DNA of 33,618 nt from Schlesneria paludicola DSM 18645 (lineage in GTDB: Bacteria > Planctomycetota > Planctomycetia > Planctomycetales > Planctomycetaceae), in assembly GCA_945862235.1 (NCBI GenBank), contig CAMAYU010000048.1:1-33618 (forward strand), read 5' to 3'. The notes beneath the pieces are model-generated. The model did not search any database. It had not been told where the DNA came from and was given only the letters and a program-made list of their open reading frames with translations. A program made the translations under genes and the position numbers. Of the stretch, positions 3,225 to 27,425 are shown piece after piece (within the stretch, counting starts at the first letter, position 1; each line of letters opens with the position of its first letter).

Positions 3225-3239
3225 ATACCTCGCGCGGTC
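3225..3239 (-). promoter_or_regulatory. Shared upstream motif GACCGCGCGAGGTAT (sulfatase)
   Basis: Read on the minus strand, this 15-mer points at the sulfatase start, 62 nt away. The same sequence with at most a few changes lies 55-69 nt upstream of the PhoD-like, PQQ/EF-hand and Gfo/Idh genes in the same orientation. A second, inverted and degenerate copy lies at 3255-3269, so this site looks like a minimal version of the element whose ends are seen at 18429 and 18710. The regulatory role is inferred from position only. Confidence 0.5.
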
Positions 3240-3276
3240 GGAACGGACTCGATTCACCGCGTGAGATTTCAACGGC

Positions 3277-3453: not shown

Positions 3454-3568
3454 GTTGTCCCTTTTCGTTTGATTGGCTTGAGTGCGTCGTTACCCAACCG
3501 AGTACATCGGAACCCGATTTCGTTTTCAAGCCAGGGCCTGCGGGGGCCAGTGCCATCGCTTTGTTCCC

Positions 3569-3646
3569 GTAGGGTGTGTGGAGTCTTCGGAACACACCGG
3601 CATTTCACAGGAATCTGGTGCGTTCCGAAGACTCCATGCACCCTAC
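3569..3646. repeat. Palindromic dispersed repeat, 30-bp arms
   Basis: Arms 3569-3598 and 3617-3646 are inverted copies with two to three mismatches around an 18-nt spacer. Single-arm copies occur at 427-456 and in part at 1723-1742. It sits in the 405 bp gap between the small membrane protein gene and bioF, where no other gene was seen. Confidence 0.8.
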
Positions 3647-3858
3647 TGGTTTCGCAGACTCAATCAGGCGATGGCCCTGTGCAGGGGCGATTCGACCGGC
3701 CTTCCCTTCGTCGCCTCACACAATTCCACCGATGAGGCCGGGCCGATGAGGCTACGCAATGGATGTTCCTTCGCTCACTTCGCGCCCGTTGGTCAAAGTC
3801 GCGATACTCGGTTTGTGTGATAATTGGGAGATAGGCGTCTCGACGATGGGCGGACTCG

Positions 3859-9072: not shown

Positions 9073-9713
9073 CGAGTCACCTTTGCGGTTGCGGAAGTAC
9101 GTGGTCTGACCACGCCAGAGAACCGGAGGAGGGCGAGACAGGCTTGCAAAATCAGGTCGTGAAAACGGCGACACGGACTAACGTCGCGGCGCAGTTTCTC
9201 CGCCCAATGAAGCAAGGATCAAAGACAGATGGGATTCGAGAGAAGGGACGGCGGTTTGTAGCGGTGCCTCAAAACGGGATCAATCCGAATCAAGGGCGGC
9301 TCATCGACAAACGCCTCGTTTCGGCCCGTTTTCCCCGAGAAAAATGCCCGGCGCTGCATCACGGCTCCACACTCCGGCACCAACTGCCGCCGAAGTTCAT
9401 TTGGCGTGGCGTGTGAACAGAGTTCCGTGACCAAAACAGACCTGTCGAGGGTTCGCTACCGCTTTATCCGACCAGAGGTATCATGGCCGACTCGCATTCG
9501 ATTCGCTGACGTTTCCCGGCTCTCCACCATTTGCGTTGGATGTCCGACTGAGCGGCACGGCGCTAGACGCCGGTGCCGGCGAAAAAAGACCGGCGGCTAG
9601 TGCCATGCCGCTCACGGGACGCCATTTTCAACAGGAATGCGAAGAGACGTTTTTCCACCCGCAATTGAGTCGTACGGACATCACCAAAGCTGTCCGCACA
9701 AGGAGCATCCGAC
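9073..9713. other. Divergent intergenic region with no gene seen
   Basis: This 641-bp region separates the divergently transcribed beta-helix protein and rhaB, so promoters for both should lie here. An AAGGAG ribosome site sits just before the rhaB ATG. The only clear structure is the palindromic element at 9529-9638. Short open frames here have neither convincing composition nor ribosome sites. Confidence 0.6.
9529..9638. repeat. Palindromic element, family B copy 1
   Basis: The 26-nt inner arms (9549-9574 and 9589-9614) are near-perfect inverted repeats with core GAGCGGCACGGCGCTAG. Outer ends ATTTGCGTTG and its imperfect complement (9629-9638) match the ends of the copy at 20104-20212. Two further copies of the arms are at 18549-18627 and 20124-20188. 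The size and ends fit a MITE-like non-autonomous element. Confidence 0.8.
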
Positions 9714-11706: not shown

Positions 11707-12209
11707 GGCGGGTGTTCTTTCTGAGCAGCGGGTGTGAGCGATTCAAGCTGGCGAGCGACTGCGATCTGCGACCGTCTCGTGGAGTTGTCTTGTCTGCTGC
11801 GAGTGACCCACTCGCGTCAGTGTTCGTGAACAAGATGTAAAGCAGCTTGAATGCCGTTCGCGCCGTCATTATTGAAAAGTTGACACTCCTCGCGCCACGA
11901 GGGCCAAATAAGATCAGTCATCCCAACGAGTTAAGCCTGTTTAGAAATCATTGCGCCCGCAACAACATCACGCCCCTCCCGCACCGTCGCACGTTGCCGA
12001 AACGCCTCACGCCAAGGTCCGCCGTTCGCGGCCCCAATGCGTAACCTCAAGCTAAGAAAGACGCTTCGGAGCGCACCCGCCACCACGTTGCCGTCGTGGA
12101 TGAAACGCCACGCTCACGAGGGAGTCACCGGACGCCAGAGAACTGCCACACTCTCCCCGTAAACGGCCAGCCGGACCAGACGGGTACTCGCCCCGCCCGC
12201 CGGAGTGAC
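11707..12209. other. Intergenic region with no gene recognised
   Basis: About 500 bp between the prepilin-like gene start and the 21-bp tandem repeats. It should hold the prepilin-like promoter. It is less G+C-rich in the middle (about 11860-11960) than its surroundings. No convincing coding frame, RNA gene or named regulatory site was found. Confidence 0.5.
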
Positions 12210-12461
12210 CATCCGGAGCGTCTGGAAGACCATCCCGGACATCTGGGGGAGCATCCCGAGCGTCTGAGGGAACATCCCGGTCGTCTGAGGGAACATCCCG
12301 GTCGTCTGAGGGAGCATCCCGGACATCTGAGGGACCATCCCGGTCGTCTAAGGGAGCATCCCGGTCGTCTGAGGGACCATCCCGGTCGTCTGAGGGACCA
12401 TCCCGGACATCTGAGGGAGCATCCCAGTCGTCTAAGGGAGCATCCCGGAGGTCTGAGTGAG
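12210..12461. repeat. Tandem repeat, 12 units of 21 bp
   Basis: Twelve uninterrupted 21-bp units, each beginning CATCC and ending in GAGGGA plus one variable base, with a degenerate thirteenth unit after 12461. There are no spacers, so it is not a CRISPR. Because the unit is a multiple of three, most frames stay open. The plus frame in phase with the unit reads a heptad H-P-G-R-L-R-E. Changes between units fall mostly at sites 9, 15 and 21, the third codon positions of that frame, and are largely silent or conservative (Gly codons, Leu codons, Glu/Asp), apart from a recurrent Arg/His change. That hints at past or present coding, but no good start or protein-like flank was found. It may simply be a variable-number repeat. 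Confidence 0.9.
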
Positions 12462-12532
12462 CATCCGGCGTGTCCGGCCGGGTGCCTGCCACCAATCGGG
12501 GACACAAACTGTTGCCGCAGGCCAAAGAAGCA

Positions 12533-18428: not shown

Positions 18429-18443
18429 ATACCTCACGCGGTC
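18429..18443 (-). promoter_or_regulatory. Shared upstream motif GACCGCGTGAGGTAT (PhoD-like)
   Basis: Read on the minus strand, the motif points at the PhoD-like start, 55 nt away. It is also the left end of the palindromic element ending at 18710, where an identical inverted copy lies. Similar sites precede the sulfatase, PQQ/EF-hand and Gfo/Idh genes. Confidence 0.5.
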
Positions 18444-18548
18444 TTGAACGAGACGTTTCTGAGATTGGAGTCATGGTGAGCCGGGCGGCGTCAGCCCCCG
18501 GACTCCTGTCGTGAAAAGCCCGGGGGCTGACGCCCAATGGACTCACTT

Positions 18549-18627
18549 TGAGCGGCACGGCGCTAGCCGCCGGTGGATCGAGTTGTGTTTCCAAGCAAAG
18601 AACCGGCGGCTAGCGCCGTGCCGCTCA
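18549..18627. repeat. Palindromic element, family B copy 2 (nested)
   Basis: The 26-nt arms 18549-18574 and 18602-18627 are perfect inverted repeats and match the copies at 9549-9614 and 20124-20188. The outer ATTTGTGTTG ends seen in those copies are missing. It lies inside the family A element. Confidence 0.8.
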
Positions 18628-18720
18628 CGGAGTGAATGACAAAATAAGTGCCATTGGGCTGACGCCGCCCGGCTCACCAGGAATGTCTCATCGAAGACCG
18701 CGTGAGGTATTAACGAGTCG

Positions 18721-19827
18721 TCAAGGCGTTGCGCTCGTCGATTTCGGCTCGGCACTTCGCAGCCAGCCTTTGCGCCAGAAGAAGTAGCCGAAGCCGATGC
18801 CGATGACGGTCATCAACCCCAGCGTCATGAAGTAGCCGTAAGCCCACTTGGTTTCGGGCATGTGTTCAAAATTCATTCCGTAAACCCCGGCGATGAAACT
18901 GAGTAGCATGAACGGAGTGGTGATGACCGTGAGCGTGCGCATGATCTCGTTCGTGCGGTTGCTCAGTTTGGAATAGTGGAAGTCGCGCAGGTCCGCGCAG
19001 GTCTCGCGGTAGATTTCGAGGATGTCGATCAGGTGCGCGGCATGGTCGTAGGTGTCGCGGAGGTAGACCTGCGTATCGTGCGAGATGGAAGAGTGTCCGC
19101 CGCGCAGCAGGCTCAGCGCCGCATCCCGCAGCGGCCAAATGATGCGCCGCAGGAAAAGCAGATCACGACGGAGTGCATGCAGGTCGGCGAGCGTTTGCCC
19201 GATGTTCACAGTCTCCGCCGCTTCATCCAGCTCGTCGAGTCGTTCGCCGTAGCGTTCGAGAACCGGGAAATAGCCATCGATCACGGCATCGAGCAATTCG
19301 TACAGCAGGTAGTCCGGCCCCGCATTTCGCACTCGCCCGCGCTTCTGGCGGATGCGGTCGCGGACGGAGTTCAGCGAGTCCCCCTCTAGATCCTCTTGAA
19401 ACGTCAGCAGGAAATTGCGACCGACGAAGAAACTGATTTGTTCGGTGACGAGCGGCGGTCCCTGCACCATGCGCAGAGCGACGTAGAGCGTGTCGCCGTA
19501 GTCATCGACTTTGGCGCGTTGGTGCGTGTTGACGGTGTCTTCCAGCGCGAGCGGATGCAGATCGAACTGCTTGCCAAGTTGATGCACCACGTCGGCGTTG
19601 CCGAGTCCGTCCACGTTGACCCACGTCACGGGAAATGTGCCGAGGAGCGCAGGCAACTCACGAACGTCACTCAACCGTTGCTCGTGCATGGCGTCGGGAC
19701 CAAACGCGATGACCGTCATCACCGAAGAGGGGGACTGCGGATCGACGTTGACAGTCCCCGGAGCCACGCCCGTTTCAACAGGTCGGCCGAGTGAGTGTTC
19801 GTGACGACTACGTTTGGGATGAGACAC
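18721..19827 (-). CDS. corA: CorA-type magnesium/cobalt channel
   Basis: This CorA-family divalent cation channel of the inner membrane carries Mg2+ (and Co2+/Ni2+) as a homopentamer. The C-terminus has the two family helices: one ending in the signature YGMN-FEHMPE, then a second (YFMTLGLMTVIGIGFGYFF) and a basic tail (RKGWLRS). The cytoplasmic domain includes HPLALEDTVNTHQRAKVDDY and EQISFFVGRNFLLTFQEDLEG, and DYLLYELLDAVIDGYFPVLE. I place the start at a GTG at 19827, so the protein begins with the HSLGRPVETGVAPGTVNVD stretch expected in the Thermotoga-type branch. The frame is open to an ATG at 19911, but those 28 residues look non-coding. The ribosome site is weak. The product is 368 residues. 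Confidence 0.93.
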   Translation of the reverse strand: MSHPKRSRHEHSLGRPVETGVAPGTVNVDPQSPSSVMTVIAFGPDAMHEQRLSDVRELPALLGTFPVTWVNVDGLGNADVVHQLGKQFDLHPLALEDTVNTHQRAKVDDYGDTLYVALRMVQGPPLVTEQISFFVGRNFLLTFQEDLEGDSLNSVRDRIRQKRGRVRNAGPDYLLYELLDAVIDGYFPVLERYGERLDELDEAAETVNIGQTLADLHALRRDLLFLRRIIWPLRDAALSLLRGGHSSISHDTQVYLRDTYDHAAHLIDILEIYRETCADLRDFHYSKLSNRTNEIMRTLTVITTPFMLLSFIAGVYGMNFEHMPETKWAYGYFMTLGLMTVIGIGFGYFFWRKGWLRSAEPKSTSATP

Positions 19828-20002
19828 GAAGGAGTCCAGCAGGAGGAAGCATGACAGGGAGCACGCCGGGCAGAGCGAGAGGAGAATTGACGATGCGGAA
19901 GGGGTTCGCAACCCAGCAGTCCGTTGCAGAGCGTAGGGTCAGCGTCTCGCTTGCCCGACAGCATGTTGAAGAACCGTAGGATGGACGCCTCGTCCGTCCG
20001 TT

Positions 20003-20056
20003 TCCAATCGATCCAATTGATCCAATTGATCCAATTGATCCAATTGATCCAATTGA
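20003..20056. repeat. Tandem repeat, six units of 9 bp
   Basis: Six copies of TCCAATTGA (the first has one change). The block is flanked by an inverted pair containing GGACGCCTCGTCCG and CGGACGAGGCATCC. It falls inside the repeat cluster between corA and the lipoprotein gene. A 9-bp unit is in frame and prone to slippage, so copy number may vary between strains. Confidence 0.9.
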
Positions 20057-20103: not shown

Positions 20104-20212
20104 ATTTGTGTTGGATGCTTGAGTGAGCGGCACGGCGCTAGCCGCCGGTGTAGTCGAAAGCGACCGGCGGCTAGCGCCATGCCGCTCACGGGACACCATT
20201 TTCAACACAAAT
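20104..20212. repeat. Palindromic element, family B copy 3 (complete)
   Basis: This is the best-preserved family B copy. The 10-bp ends (ATTTGTGTTG at 20104-20113, complement at 20203-20212) are perfect, and the 26-nt inner arms (20124-20149, 20163-20188) differ at one position. End similarity extends about 15 nt further out on both sides. It is about 109 bp with no coding potential, as expected for a MITE. Confidence 0.85.
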
Positions 20213-20252
20213 GCCGGAAAGCCCGTTTTTCAACAAGTTGCCAACTTGCAAT

Positions 20253-21364: not shown

Positions 21365-21441
21365 AAAACTAGCCCGACGCGCAAGCGAGGGCCTCACCGA
21401 CATCGAATGCTCAGCCCTCGCTTGCGCGTCGGGCTAGTTTT
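21365..21441. repeat. Perfect 28-bp inverted repeat, bidirectional terminator-like
   Basis: Arms 21365-21392 and 21414-21441 are perfect reverse complements with a 21-nt loop, and each strand ends in TTTT after the stem. It lies in the 329-bp gap between the stop of the membrane-anchored gene at 21526 and the lipoprotein gene start at 21196, and could end transcription of the former. Half copies of a related sequence occur at 5103-5123 and 23677-23697. No gene was seen in the gap. Confidence 0.85.
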
Positions 21442-22485: not shown

Positions 22486-22505
22486 GCGATCATCCTTAAC
22501 GGCCT

Positions 22506-22592
22506 GTTGAAAAACGTAGGGTAAGCGTCTCGCTTGCCCGTAAATGCAGTTGAAAAAGAGGCAAGCCAAAGGCTTACCCTACGTTTTTCAAC
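22506..22592. repeat. Palindromic element, family C copy
   Basis: Perfect 21-nt arms (22506-22526 and 22572-22592) with core AACGTAGGGTAAGC lie in the gap between the divergent membrane-protein gene and galU. Partial copies occur at 19932-19960, 20259-20285 and 33570-33618. The remainder of the 303-bp gap (22486-22788) shows no gene. Confidence 0.85.
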
Positions 22593-22788
22593 GGGCTGTT
22601 ATCTCTCTCGGGCCGAGCGGGCGGCATTCTGGCGCGAGGGTCTAAGAATGTCGAGAGACGGTTGCGAGACTTCACGTCCTCATCAGGCCTTCAACAAACT
22701 GTTGCCCTGTTGTGTGAATTGCTATCCTCCCGCCCGACTTGCGGCCCTGTTCTCGCGTGCGTGCGACTTCACTTCAGAGACACCTCTC

Positions 22789-23939: not shown

Positions 23940-24968
23940 ATGCAACTCATTCGTCGTCGAGCTTACGCGCGAGCGGGTCTCGTGGGGAATCCGTCGGACG
24001 GCTACAACGGCCGGACGATCTCGTTCATCGTGCGGAACCTGTGGGCCGAGGTCGTTCTCTACGAGTGGGACGAGATCGAAATCCTCTGGAGCATGGAAGA
24101 CAAGAGCCGCTTCCGTTCGGTCCAAGACCTCGTGCATGACGTGCGACTGCACGGTTACTACGGCGGTGTGAGGCTGGTCAAAGCGACGATCAAGCGGTTC
24201 GTTGAGTACTGCGGCCAACAAGGACTGACGCTGCACGACCGCAACTTTTCGATCCGCTATTCAAGCTGCATCCCGCGCAACGTCGGCCTCGCCGGATCGA
24301 GTGCCATCATCGTGGCGACGCTTCGAGCCCTGATGGACTTCTATGAAGTCTCAATCCCGCTCGAAGTGCTGCCATCGCTAGCACTCAGTGTCGAAACGGG
24401 CGAACTCTCCATCACCGGCGGCCTGCAAGACCGAGTCATCCAGTGCTACGAGGGGCTCGTCTCGATGGACTTCTCGAAGGAGAACATGGTCGAGAAAAAC
24501 GGCTACAAGTGCGGCGTCTACGAGCGACTCGACCCGTCGCTGCTGCCCCCCGTTTACGTCGCGTACTGTTCCGAATTTGGTGAACCAACCGAAGTGCTGC
24601 ACAACAATCTGAGAACACGCTTCGATGCGGGAGACGCCACCGTTCGCCACGCCATGCAAACCTTCGCCGGTCTCGCGCAGCAAGCACGCGGCGCGATCCT
24701 CAATCGCGACACACCACTCCTCGCGAAATTGATCGACACCAACTTCGACACCCGCCGTTCGATCTGCCAACTTCATGCAGGACATATCGAGATGATCGAG
24801 CGGGCACGCGCTACGGGAGCCTCCGCCAAGTTCGCCGGTTCGGGCGGAGCCATCGTCGGCACCTACACCGACGACACCATGTTCACCGCGTTGAAGAACG
24901 CCCTCGCCCCGATTCAATGCGTCGTCTTCAAACCAATCATCGAGCCTGATCCTCCCCGCGTCCCGTGA
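23940..24968 (+). CDS. GHMP kinase, glucuronokinase-like
   Basis: This 342-residue GHMP-superfamily sugar kinase closely resembles plant glucuronokinase as I recall it. Shared segments: [18 protein letters not shown] (substrate/fold motif near residue 12), [12 protein letters not shown], the ATP-binding loop [13 protein letters not shown] (about residues 107-119), [38 protein letters not shown] and the C-terminal [14 protein letters not shown] motif. Plant glucuronokinase makes glucuronate 1-phosphate from glucuronate and ATP. The neighbour galU is a UTP-dependent pyrophosphorylase that could complete a route to UDP-glucuronate. I place the start at the ATG at 23940 (GGA 9 nt upstream), which begins right before the conserved region; ATG 23904 or GTG 23892 are alternatives. 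Other GHMP sugar kinases (heptose, arabinose) remain possible. Confidence 0.88.
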
Positions 24969-24978
24969 TGAGGCATCT

Positions 24979-25087
24979 GAGCGGGGCGGCGTCAGCCCCC
25001 CGGTTCTTGGGCGTAAGCCCTCTTCAAAAGAACCGGGGCTGATGCCGCCCCGCTCGGAAAGGTTTCACTTTGGACCGCGTGAGATAT
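24979..25087. repeat. Palindromic element, family A copy
   Basis: The 21-nt arms (24979-24999 and 25035-25055) are inverted with one mismatch, and carry the GGGGCGGCGTCAGCCCC core. The right end carries the shared 15-mer at 25073-25087. A degenerate left end (GATCCTCCCCGCGTCC) seems to overlap the last codons and stop of the kinase gene. It links the kinase gene to the PQQ/EF-hand gene. Confidence 0.8.
25073..25087 (+). promoter_or_regulatory. Shared upstream motif GACCGCGTGAGATAT (PQQ/EF-hand gene)
   Basis: The motif lies 60 nt upstream of the ATG at 25148 and points at the gene. It forms the right end of a family A palindrome. The same motif precedes three other exported-protein genes at 55-69 nt. 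Whether it is a promoter, an operator or just an element end is not known. Confidence 0.5.
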
Positions 25088-25147: not shown

Positions 25148-26593
25148 ATGCCCCGCCCTTTTTCTCGCGCGATGTTGTTCTCAGCGACCATGATGTCGCT
25201 CGCTCTGCTTTCGTTGGAGATGACCTATGCGGGCGATTGGACTCAGTTTCGCGGGTCGCTCGGGACGGGAGTCGCTGCGACTCAGGACAAGCTGCCGGTC
25301 GAGATCGGCCCCGACAAGCATGTCCTCTGGCGAACCGAGTTGGCTCCCGGCCACTCGTCGCCGGTGATCGTGGGCAACCGCATCTTCGCGACGGCGGTGC
25401 GCGACAAGAAACTCTTCACCGTCTGCCTCGACCGAGCGACCGGCAAGCAGCAATGGGAAGCGGAAGCTCCTTACGAGAAACTCGAACCGATCCACCGCAT
25501 CGGCAGCCACGCGCAATCGAGTCCCTGCGCGGACAACGAGCGGATCGTCAGCTTCTTCGGCTCGTGCGGTCTGCACTGCTACGACCACAGCGGCAAGCTG
25601 CTGTGGAAGCGGCCGATGGGGCCGTTCGTCAACGATTTCGGAGCCTCCAGTTCTCCAATCATCGTCGGCAACAAAGTCATTCTCTGCCAAGACCACGATG
25701 TCGGATCGTTCCTGATGGCGTTCGATAAGCAGTCGGGCAAGCCGCTTTGGGAGACGGATCGTTCCGAGTTCCCTCGCAACGCCAGCTCGCCCGTGTTGTG
25801 GCTCAATGAGGGTCGTCCGCAGATCGTCGTGGCCGCCACGTTGCGCGTCGTCGGTTACGACTTGGAGTCAGGTAAAGAGGCGTGGACCGTGCGAGGCGTC
25901 TCTCGCGCGGTGTCGTGTACGCCGTCGGTCGGTGATGACGGGCACCTCTACATCGCAGGCTGGGCGGCCGGTGGCGATGAAAACGAGCCGATCCGCGTCG
26001 AGCCATTCGACGATGTCGCCTCGTTGCGCGATGCCGACAAGAACGGAACGCTCGAAGAGAAGGAACTCGAAAAGGGAGCGGTCCTCCAACGGTACTCGCA
26101 AGTCGATCGCAACAAGGACGGACGTGTCACGAAGGCCGAGTACGAATACTTCCGAGGACTGCTCGACGAAGGAAAGAATCTCATCATCAGCATCAAGCAA
26201 GGTGCGCAGGGTGATGCCACGGAAACGCATCTCCGCTGGAAGCATCCCAAGCTCGTCCCCTTTTGTTCGTCGCCGGTCTATGTCTCCGGCCTGCTCTTCA
26301 CGATTAAAGACGGCGGCATTTTGCAGTGCCTGAACGCCAACACCGGCAAGCCAACGAAGCAGCAACGGCTGGAAGCGAGCGACGATTACTATGCCTCACC
26401 CGTGGCGGGCGACGGCAAAATCTACCTGCTCAACGAACAGGGCCAACTGACGGTCGTCAGTGCCACCGACAAGTGTGAAGTGCTGCACACGGCCGAGTTC
26501 AAAGAAGACGTGTACTCGACCCCCGCGATCCTCGACGGCCGCATCTATGTCCGCACGGCCAAGGCGCTCTACTGCTTTGGCGAGTCGAAGTGA
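25148..26593 (+). CDS. Exported PQQ-like beta-propeller protein with two EF-hands
   Basis: This 481-residue protein has a signal peptide (about residues 1-28, MPRPFSRAMLFSATMMSLAL...TYAG) followed by GDWTQFRGSLGTG, the usual opening of planctomycete PQQ-like propellers. Repeated blade motifs are seen: HVLWRTELAPGHSSPVIVGNRI, DRATGKQQWE, SGKLLWKRPMG, SGKPLWETD, ESGKEAWTVRG and the late AEFKEDVYSTPAILDGRIYVRTAKALYCF. Two calcium-binding EF-hand loops interrupt the propeller: DADKNGTLEEKE from D295 and DRNKDGRVTKAE from D320. Catalytic PQQ residues cannot be assigned, so it is more likely a structural, BamB-like or binding protein than a dehydrogenase. I use the ATG at 25148 (AAGAGA upstream); the upstream frame runs through a repeat. 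The shared 15-mer motif lies 60 nt upstream. Confidence 0.92.
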   Translation: MPRPFSRAMLFSATMMSLALLSLEMTYAGDWTQFRGSLGTGVAATQDKLPVEIGPDKHVLWRTELAPGHSSPVIVGNRIFATAVRDKKLFTVCLDRATGKQQWEAEAPYEKLEPIHRIGSHAQSSPCADNERIVSFFGSCGLHCYDHSGKLLWKRPMGPFVNDFGASSSPIIVGNKVILCQDHDVGSFLMAFDKQSGKPLWETDRSEFPRNASSPVLWLNEGRPQIVVAATLRVVGYDLESGKEAWTVRGVSRAVSCTPSVGDDGHLYIAGWAAGGDENEPIRVEPFDDVASLRDADKNGTLEEKELEKGAVLQRYSQVDRNKDGRVTKAEYEYFRGLLDEGKNLIISIKQGAQGDATETHLRWKHPKLVPFCSSPVYVSGLLFTIKDGGILQCLNANTGKPTKQQRLEASDDYYASPVAGDGKIYLLNEQGQLTVVSATDKCEVLHTAEFKEDVYSTPAILDGRIYVRTAKALYCFGESK

Positions 26594-27262: not shown

Positions 27263-27307
27263 GTAGGCGGGCTACCGTGAGCGAGAAGTACGTCAAACGG
27301 CACGAAG

Positions 27308-27405
27308 TGAGACCTCTGAGCGGGGCGGCGTCAGCCCCTTGGCTCTTGGGCGTAAGCCCGCTTTGGAAGAATCGGGGACTGACGCCGCCCCGCTCAGAGG
27401 TCTCA
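27308..27405. repeat. Palindromic element, family A copy
   Basis: The 27-nt arms (27308-27334 and 27379-27405) are perfect reverse complements around a 44-nt centre that includes CTTGGGCGTAAGCCCG, also present in the copy at 24979. The right end continues into the shared motif at 27411-27425. It sits between tsaE and the Gfo/Idh gene. Confidence 0.85.
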
Positions 27406-27410
27406 TCGCT

Positions 27411-27425
27411 GACCGCGCGAGGTGT
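27411..27425 (+). promoter_or_regulatory. Shared upstream motif GACCGCGCGAGGTGT (Gfo/Idh gene)
   Basis: The motif lies 69 nt upstream of the ATG at 27495 in the same orientation as the other three copies. It follows the right arm of a family A palindrome. A second shared sequence, TTAAACGAGTC, lies between it and the start (27453-27463). Confidence 0.5.

Follow-up and report, generated by a model that had tools for sequence, protein, structure and literature searches.

Among described systems, the closest is RUP of Streptococcus pneumoniae, a 107-bp MITE whose proposed mover is IS630-Spn1. According to the available excerpts of the two sources, RUP occurs in about 100 short intergenic copies, its ends match an IS630-family IS, and its targets contain TA (PMC2229807, PMC3049150). 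ERIC/IRU and Correia/NEMIS are presented in the excerpted text of PMC2229807 as small palindromic repeats with terminal inverted repeats and TA at their termini. REP/REPIN and TIR repeats are tied to RAYT/TIRYT transposases, and the part of PMC3733652 at hand describes multicopy inverted pairs of short palindromes and reports them in Planctomycetes.

We investigated a window of Schlesneria paludicola DSM 18645 (the whole stretch of DNA that was analysed, 33,618 nucleotides). It contains a 15-nt motif, GACCGCGYGAGRTRT. Very probably this is the outer edge of the terminal inverted repeat (TIR) of short non-autonomous MITEs that stem from an IS630-family (Tc1/mariner superfamily) transposon of Planctomycetes and were once moved by its transposase. 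On sequence grounds, the elements are a new family within a known kind, IS630-derived MITEs: they are short and TIR-bounded, have many dispersed and mostly intergenic copies, and share their ends with an autonomous IS630 transposon. Like RUP, as far as the excerpts describe it, they form an abundant short intergenic repeat with IS630-family ends. Unlike RUP, they come from another phylum, have another, GC-rich sequence and carry long REP-like palindromes inside; in addition, no intact IS of the clade was found in the Schlesneria genome, and target duplication is irregular. With ERIC/IRU and Correia/NEMIS, again going by the excerpted text, they have in common that they are small palindromic repeats with terminal inverted repeats. 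However, that text gives no IS of origin for those repeats, RUP being the named exception (PMC2229807), whereas the Schlesneria ends point to an IS630 clade. Inverted short-palindrome pairs in many copies are also a feature of REP/REPIN, as portrayed in the accessible part of its source, but the outer ends of the Schlesneria elements are IS630 ends, and the six Y1 loci of the genome are not flanked by them. No description of the Schlesneria element was recognised in the literature searched, which comprised open-licence papers; a published account may exist elsewhere. For this abundant planctomycete repeat family the analysis supplies the ends and the type of parent transposon, as an aid to annotation.

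The motif has five exact matches in the window and none in 100 dinucleotide shuffles. At up to three mismatches, the count is 13 where 8.75 would be expected, and only the near-exact sites therefore carry information. A sequence-only reading had listed four exact sites, 3225-3239 (-), 18429-18443 (-), 25073-25087 (+) and 27411-27425 (+), and these were found where and on the strands it had placed them, while a fifth, 18696-18710 (+), had escaped it. Its view of the motif as the ends of a repeat element was borne out, in that outward-facing end pairs, mostly 100-150 bp apart, bound palindromic elements. The TIR reads ATACCTCRCGCGGTC-N5-TGAG, with the motif as its outer 15 nt, and comparison of the flanks of 30 sites showed that the inner part, CTCA-N5-GACCGCGYGAGRTAT, is common to many of them.

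Three elements and a probable fourth were found in the window. The motif at 25073-25087 (+) is the outer end of the right TIR of a 139-bp copy (24949-25087), the left end of which has decayed (ATCCTCCCCGCG...GATGAG); this copy folds as single-stranded DNA into one long hairpin (z -8.3). A 138-bp copy (27288-27425) carries the motif at its right end (27411-27425) and likewise forms a hairpin (z -8.5), with its central side-stem flipped. The third copy, of 282 bp (18429-18710), has an exact outward motif at each end (18429-18443, -, and 18696-18710, +) and contains nested REP-like palindromes of two kinds, at 18477-18508/18655-18678 and 18549-18574/18602-18628. The fourth, a 45-bp palindrome at 3225-3269, is probably a minimal copy, with an exact end at 3225-3239 (-), a partner with two mismatches at 3255-3269 (+) and an interior without a REP-like palindrome. 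It is the least certain of the four because it is absent from the profile-based element list described below. Similar 45-bp pairs are found at L099:8589-8633, L102:18385-18429 and L118:988/1018.

Across the genome, a size of 140-141 bp is the commonest, and 35 of 72 candidate elements fall into the 140-149 bp bin; the others range from 30-66 bp, where weak candidates are doubtful, to 286 bp. Judged from length alone, it follows that the elements have no coding capacity. The 140-bp kind can be aligned end to end. Forty candidates measured 130-146 bp, 38 of these matched the query element and 36 were aligned, with a mean column identity of 70%; removal of 11 flipped, rearranged or gapped copies left 25 sequences for the model alignment, with a mean column identity of 85%. 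Nearest neighbours among these 25 are 77-93% identical, so these 140-bp copies did not arise very recently. Each of three copies gave one long hairpin (z -8.3 to -8.9) when folded as single-stranded DNA. In about eight of the 36 aligned elements the central side-stem is reversed relative to the ends, for example in L056:12953-13093, L172:2501-2641 and the window copy at 27288-27425.

In the whole assembly (6.83 Mb, 377 contigs), 106 sites match the motif with at most one mismatch, compared with one site for the reversed pattern. A 40-column end profile was built from motif sites and applied to 2.03 Mb of unselected DNA, namely the window together with the initial 20 kb of each of 100 contigs. 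This gave 108 matches above 11 bits and 96 above 13 bits, against 3 and 0 for the reversed control. Of the end pairs less than 300 bp apart in this DNA, 26 face outward (18 of them at 100-149 bp), one inward and two in tandem. Called coding sequence makes up 79% of it, yet 86 of the 96 strong ends are intergenic. At a lower profile threshold, 72 outward-paired candidate elements were obtained from 170 sequences; since most were chosen by the motif-derived profile, the conserved ends in this list are there partly by construction, whereas the outward pairing and the association of the ends with IS are independent of profile selection. At least 149 matches to the 140-bp model were found in the genome, some of them counting both strands of one place. 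Four outward pairs at 2.4-3.4 kb were within the range of inward and tandem pairs at that spacing and are read as neighbouring elements. Several contigs end inside element palindromes (C148:16060-16127, C285:1-63, C347:1-62, C218:1-55 and C177:1-54); the assembly thus probably breaks there, and the copy number is a lower bound.

The parent transposon was approached by scanning named genomes with CTCANNNNNGACCGCGYGNGGTATA, which yielded 32 stretches, some of them in unrelated phyla and probably due to chance. In three loci of one Isosphaeraceae genome, an end lies directly after a coding sequence resembling the IS630 C terminus. One of these loci, L302, has two overlapping frames of 163 and 221 aa that scored 124 bits (6e-36) and 63 bits (3.8e-17) against NCBIfam transpos_IS630 (cut-off 100), and the second frame matches Pfam DDE_3 (1e-24). 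About 1.19 kb separates the ends of this IS, of which the left has the lower score; the end adjoins the 3' side of the transposase, and the transposase stop codon falls within the motif. A search of 150 family genomes with the 221-aa part returned 20 loci in 14 genomes; in G014 and G112 the frames that matched are free of stop codons. At least one end was present at 18 of the 20 transposase loci (17 of 19 places, since L329 and L332 are one place), compared with one match in a 57,660-nt reversed control; at the other two loci no end was found at the threshold used. Both ends are present in L320, L322 and L324, at 1.16-1.18 kb from each other, and in L328 the end is misplaced relative to an intact IS. 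Twelve clearer IS ends, from L302 and nine of the 20 loci, share 20-24 of 31 positions with the 31-nt MITE end, whereas the highest score among 20,000 random strings was 18.

Within the Schlesneria assembly itself, no intact transposase of this IS630 clade was found. There is a decayed IS630 copy on C210, which starts with TATACCTCGCGCGGC, the same end as that of the MITEs, and has broken frames, so that the clade is represented by a fragment only; the second match to the 221-aa query, on C313, is distant and lacks an end. Of seven DDE_3 loci (Pfam) in this genome, six have no end, and in L340 an end lies about 530 nt from the domain. An intact transposase of the clade may lie in an assembly gap or may have been lost. 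Among family genomes, the median number of motif sites was 5 in the 14 with the transposase and 2 in the 135 without (p 4e-5, uncorrected for relatedness). The site-rich genomes G081 (14 sites), G083 (10) and G139 (9) have no transposase match at 1e-25.

For an empty-site test, the flanks of each element were joined and searched against the available DNA. The element at L060:10695-10946 interrupts a second dispersed repeat at CTAG, the one clear case among the matches listed. Other copies of the second repeat have the uninterrupted site, GGGCTAGTTTT, the best two being 93% identical over 58 nt to the joined L060 flanks. An element in L006 appears to occupy the same CTAG in a diverged copy. The second repeat is also present in the window, at 21365-21441, as a perfect 28-nt inverted repeat around AAAACTAGCCCGACGCGCAAGCGAGGGC; this is part of a repeat dispersed in many copies, at whose CTAG one MITE clearly lies.

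Flanking bases were counted in 51 rows, taken from the 72 candidates with two good ends required and with L129:9496 counted twice with different partners. TA is found at both flanks in 10 of the 51 rows, and one element lies at CTAG in the second repeat, of which intact site copies exist. Just outside the two ends, complementary bases are frequent: 15 of the 51 rows have T/A and 11 have G/C, and a TA duplication does not account for the latter class. No target duplication longer than 2 bp was consistent among the candidate elements. The paired flanks hint at a duplication of AT, but this disagrees with the CTAG empty site. From the copy number, the ends and the one clear nested insertion we infer that the elements have moved. 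An IS630 transposase would have bound and cut the shared ends in trans and would have moved the short elements into intergenic spots; the neighbouring genes would then mark places where insertion was tolerated, the element not having been put there for regulation.

We then compared relatives. With at most one mismatch to GACCGCGYGAGRTAT, the Schlesneria genome has 90 sites, the genus mate G150 has 28 (mostly a variant) and the 13 other genomes of the genus have 0-6; the amplification is species-specific. Twenty of the 28 G150 sites were inspected by eye, and 18 of these show an element of similar length with another interior, typically TTATACTGCTCGCGGTC-N5-TGAGG ... CCTCA-N5-GACCGCGCGTGGTATAA, while L276 and L278 do not. 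The G150 loci L262-L281 represent a MITE family of their own, alike in its ends but not in its interior, that has been amplified in this genus mate. The 140-bp model has matches in 52 of 150 family genomes, the Schlesneria genome included; those elsewhere are weaker, and part of them cover the inner palindrome only. Ends around stems of the GTTTAACCGC kind were seen in L297, L299 and L300 of another planctomycete (LacPavin MAG_56_14) and, in the Schlesneria genome, in L017 and L026.

Because the same ends hold quite different interiors elsewhere, the REP-like palindromes inside many copies are best regarded as passengers or structural filling. A tentative extension, to which we give somewhat less than even credence, is that the ends of one IS630 clade in Planctomycetes act as an open vehicle, with the same TIRs carrying unrelated palindromic cargo: paired REPs in the Schlesneria genome, a different hairpin in G150 and stems of other kinds in additional genomes. 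Palindromic repeats with a different origin would in that event have been taken up between IS630 ends, with amplification proceeding independently from species to species. If this is true, modular MITEs would spread REP pairs without a RAYT. Unrelated palindromes between shared ends in any event offer a testable case of MITE modularity.

We also considered whether the element could be a structured RNA or a bidirectional terminator that is kept for its hairpin, its mobility being past, and judge this improbable. The very stable hairpins of the three folded copies agree with it, as does one stem pair for which 16 of 36 sequences have A-U and 15 have C-G. However, although the consensus RNA folds into a hairpin, the RNAalifold covariation term is about zero (0.08), with two-sided changes in 2 of 17 pairs, and an Rfam search of the window returned no match. 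The sites are not enriched in convergent gaps either: tandem, divergent and convergent gaps hold 44, 24 and 13 sites, compared with 47.5, 21.9 and 11.7 expected from gap lengths (p 0.74). The presence of the same ends around a different interior in G150 also speaks against this reading.

Even less probable is a REP/REPIN identity, in which a RAYT-type Y1 transposase moved the elements and the motif is their outer edge. The interior is indeed an inverted pair of REP-like palindromes, and of 29 such palindromes in the 2.03 Mb, 18 have a strong end no more than 150 nt away. Moreover, the genome has six Y1_Tnp matches, and REP and TIR repeats tied to Y1-type transposases are described in the part of PMC3733652 at hand. 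Yet the other 11 palindromes are away from any strong end, and some Schlesneria copies, as well as the 18 G150 elements, have the ends without REP-like palindromes (by eye). Neither the end motif nor the element palindromes were found at any of the six Y1_Tnp loci (1.5-kb flanks), and the Y1_Tnp gene in L183 is flanked by GTAGGGT sites instead. The ends themselves match IS630 transposons.

The window holds REP-like sequences in their own right. Palindromes headed by GTAGGGT lie at 426-457, 3566-3649 and 22497-22601, and the Y1_Tnp gene in L183 (C195) stands amid several GTAGGGT sites; together these probably represent a RAYT and the REP family that goes with it. Another family of REP-like palindromes (TGAGCGGCACGGCGCTAGCCGCCGGT) forms inverted pairs at 9549-9640, 18549-18653 and 20124-20214, either free or inside the 282-bp MITE.

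Least credible of all is the proposal of the sequence-only reading that the motif is a promoter or regulator site (e.g. for an ECF sigma factor) controlling exported-protein genes, as its rule of direction, distance and exported products, drawn from four sites, fails across the whole genome and the direction, position, product and orthologue tests give it no support. The four sites do lie 62, 55, 60 and 69 nt from start codons, as an independent gene call confirmed; the motif at 25073-25087, for example, is followed after 60 nt by the gene at 25148-26593 (+), labelled PQQ/EF-hand-type in that reading. A simple hydrophobicity rule also scores the N terminus of all four products as signal-like, yet it does the same for 40% of 1280 genes. 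The motif does not always point at a gene, as had been maintained, because the fifth site, 18696-18710 (+), reads toward the 3' end of the called gene at 18721-19719 (-), which lies 10 nt past it.

Genome-wide, 100 of the 106 sites with at most one mismatch entered the analyses of position and direction. A codon-usage script supplied the genes and the hydrophobicity rule the signal peptides; both are crude but were applied alike to test and baseline. Eighty-eight sites are intergenic and 12 lie inside called genes. The 81 sites flanked by two called genes comprise 24 in tandem gaps reading toward the start, 20 in tandem gaps reading away, 24 in divergent and 13 in convergent gaps. The tandem gaps thus show no orientation bias (p 0.65), and the motif faces a 5' end in 59% of the 81 sites, compared with 57% under random intergenic placement. 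Without the window sites, tandem gaps hold 21 toward and 19 away, and profile-selected ends in the unselected 2.03 Mb give 26 toward starts and 23 away.

Sites do crowd toward gene ends. With the window included, 20 of 48 lie within 90 nt of the 5' end they face (23% expected, p 0.005), but 21 of 33 lie within 90 nt of a faced 3' end (28% expected, p 2e-5), a crowding at least as strong. This closeness likely reflects that a 140-bp element takes up much of a short gap. At 40-90 nt, 12 of 48 5'-facing sites were found against 12.6% expected (p 0.015, window included), compared with 8 of 33 3'-facing sites against 15.5% (p 0.15). This enrichment at 5' ends rests on the window's own sites: when they are left out, 5'-facing and 3'-facing sites do not differ, with 8 of 44 and 8 of 32 (p 0.57).

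An excess of signal-like products among genes faced within 90 nt appears with the window (13 of 20, p 0.037) but not without it (9 of 16, p 0.21), the baseline being 40%. Within 150 nt, products are signal-like for 14 of 26 genes faced from the 5' side (p 0.16) and for 12 of 23 faced from the 3' side, against the same baseline. For the one gene examined in relatives, the PQQ-type gene, the motif at up to three mismatches was absent from about 400 nt upstream of the orthologue in all 13 genus relatives, where the best matches are 65-72% identical in 12 and 51% identical in one; the 14th relative, G150, was left out as it has a distant match only. The motif sites themselves form outward pairs that bound one element. 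Nothing outside the window supports a regulatory role, although single copies may have acquired one. The tempting but wrong reading as an exported-protein regulon thus gives way to that of an ordinary mobile element, which suggests that, in repeat-rich genomes, upstream motifs should be checked for a partner end before promoters are called.

Two tandem arrays were also noted in the window: one of 21-nt units at 12150-12487, detected in 11 overlapping registers, and one of 9-nt units (TCCAATTGA) at 19994-20056.
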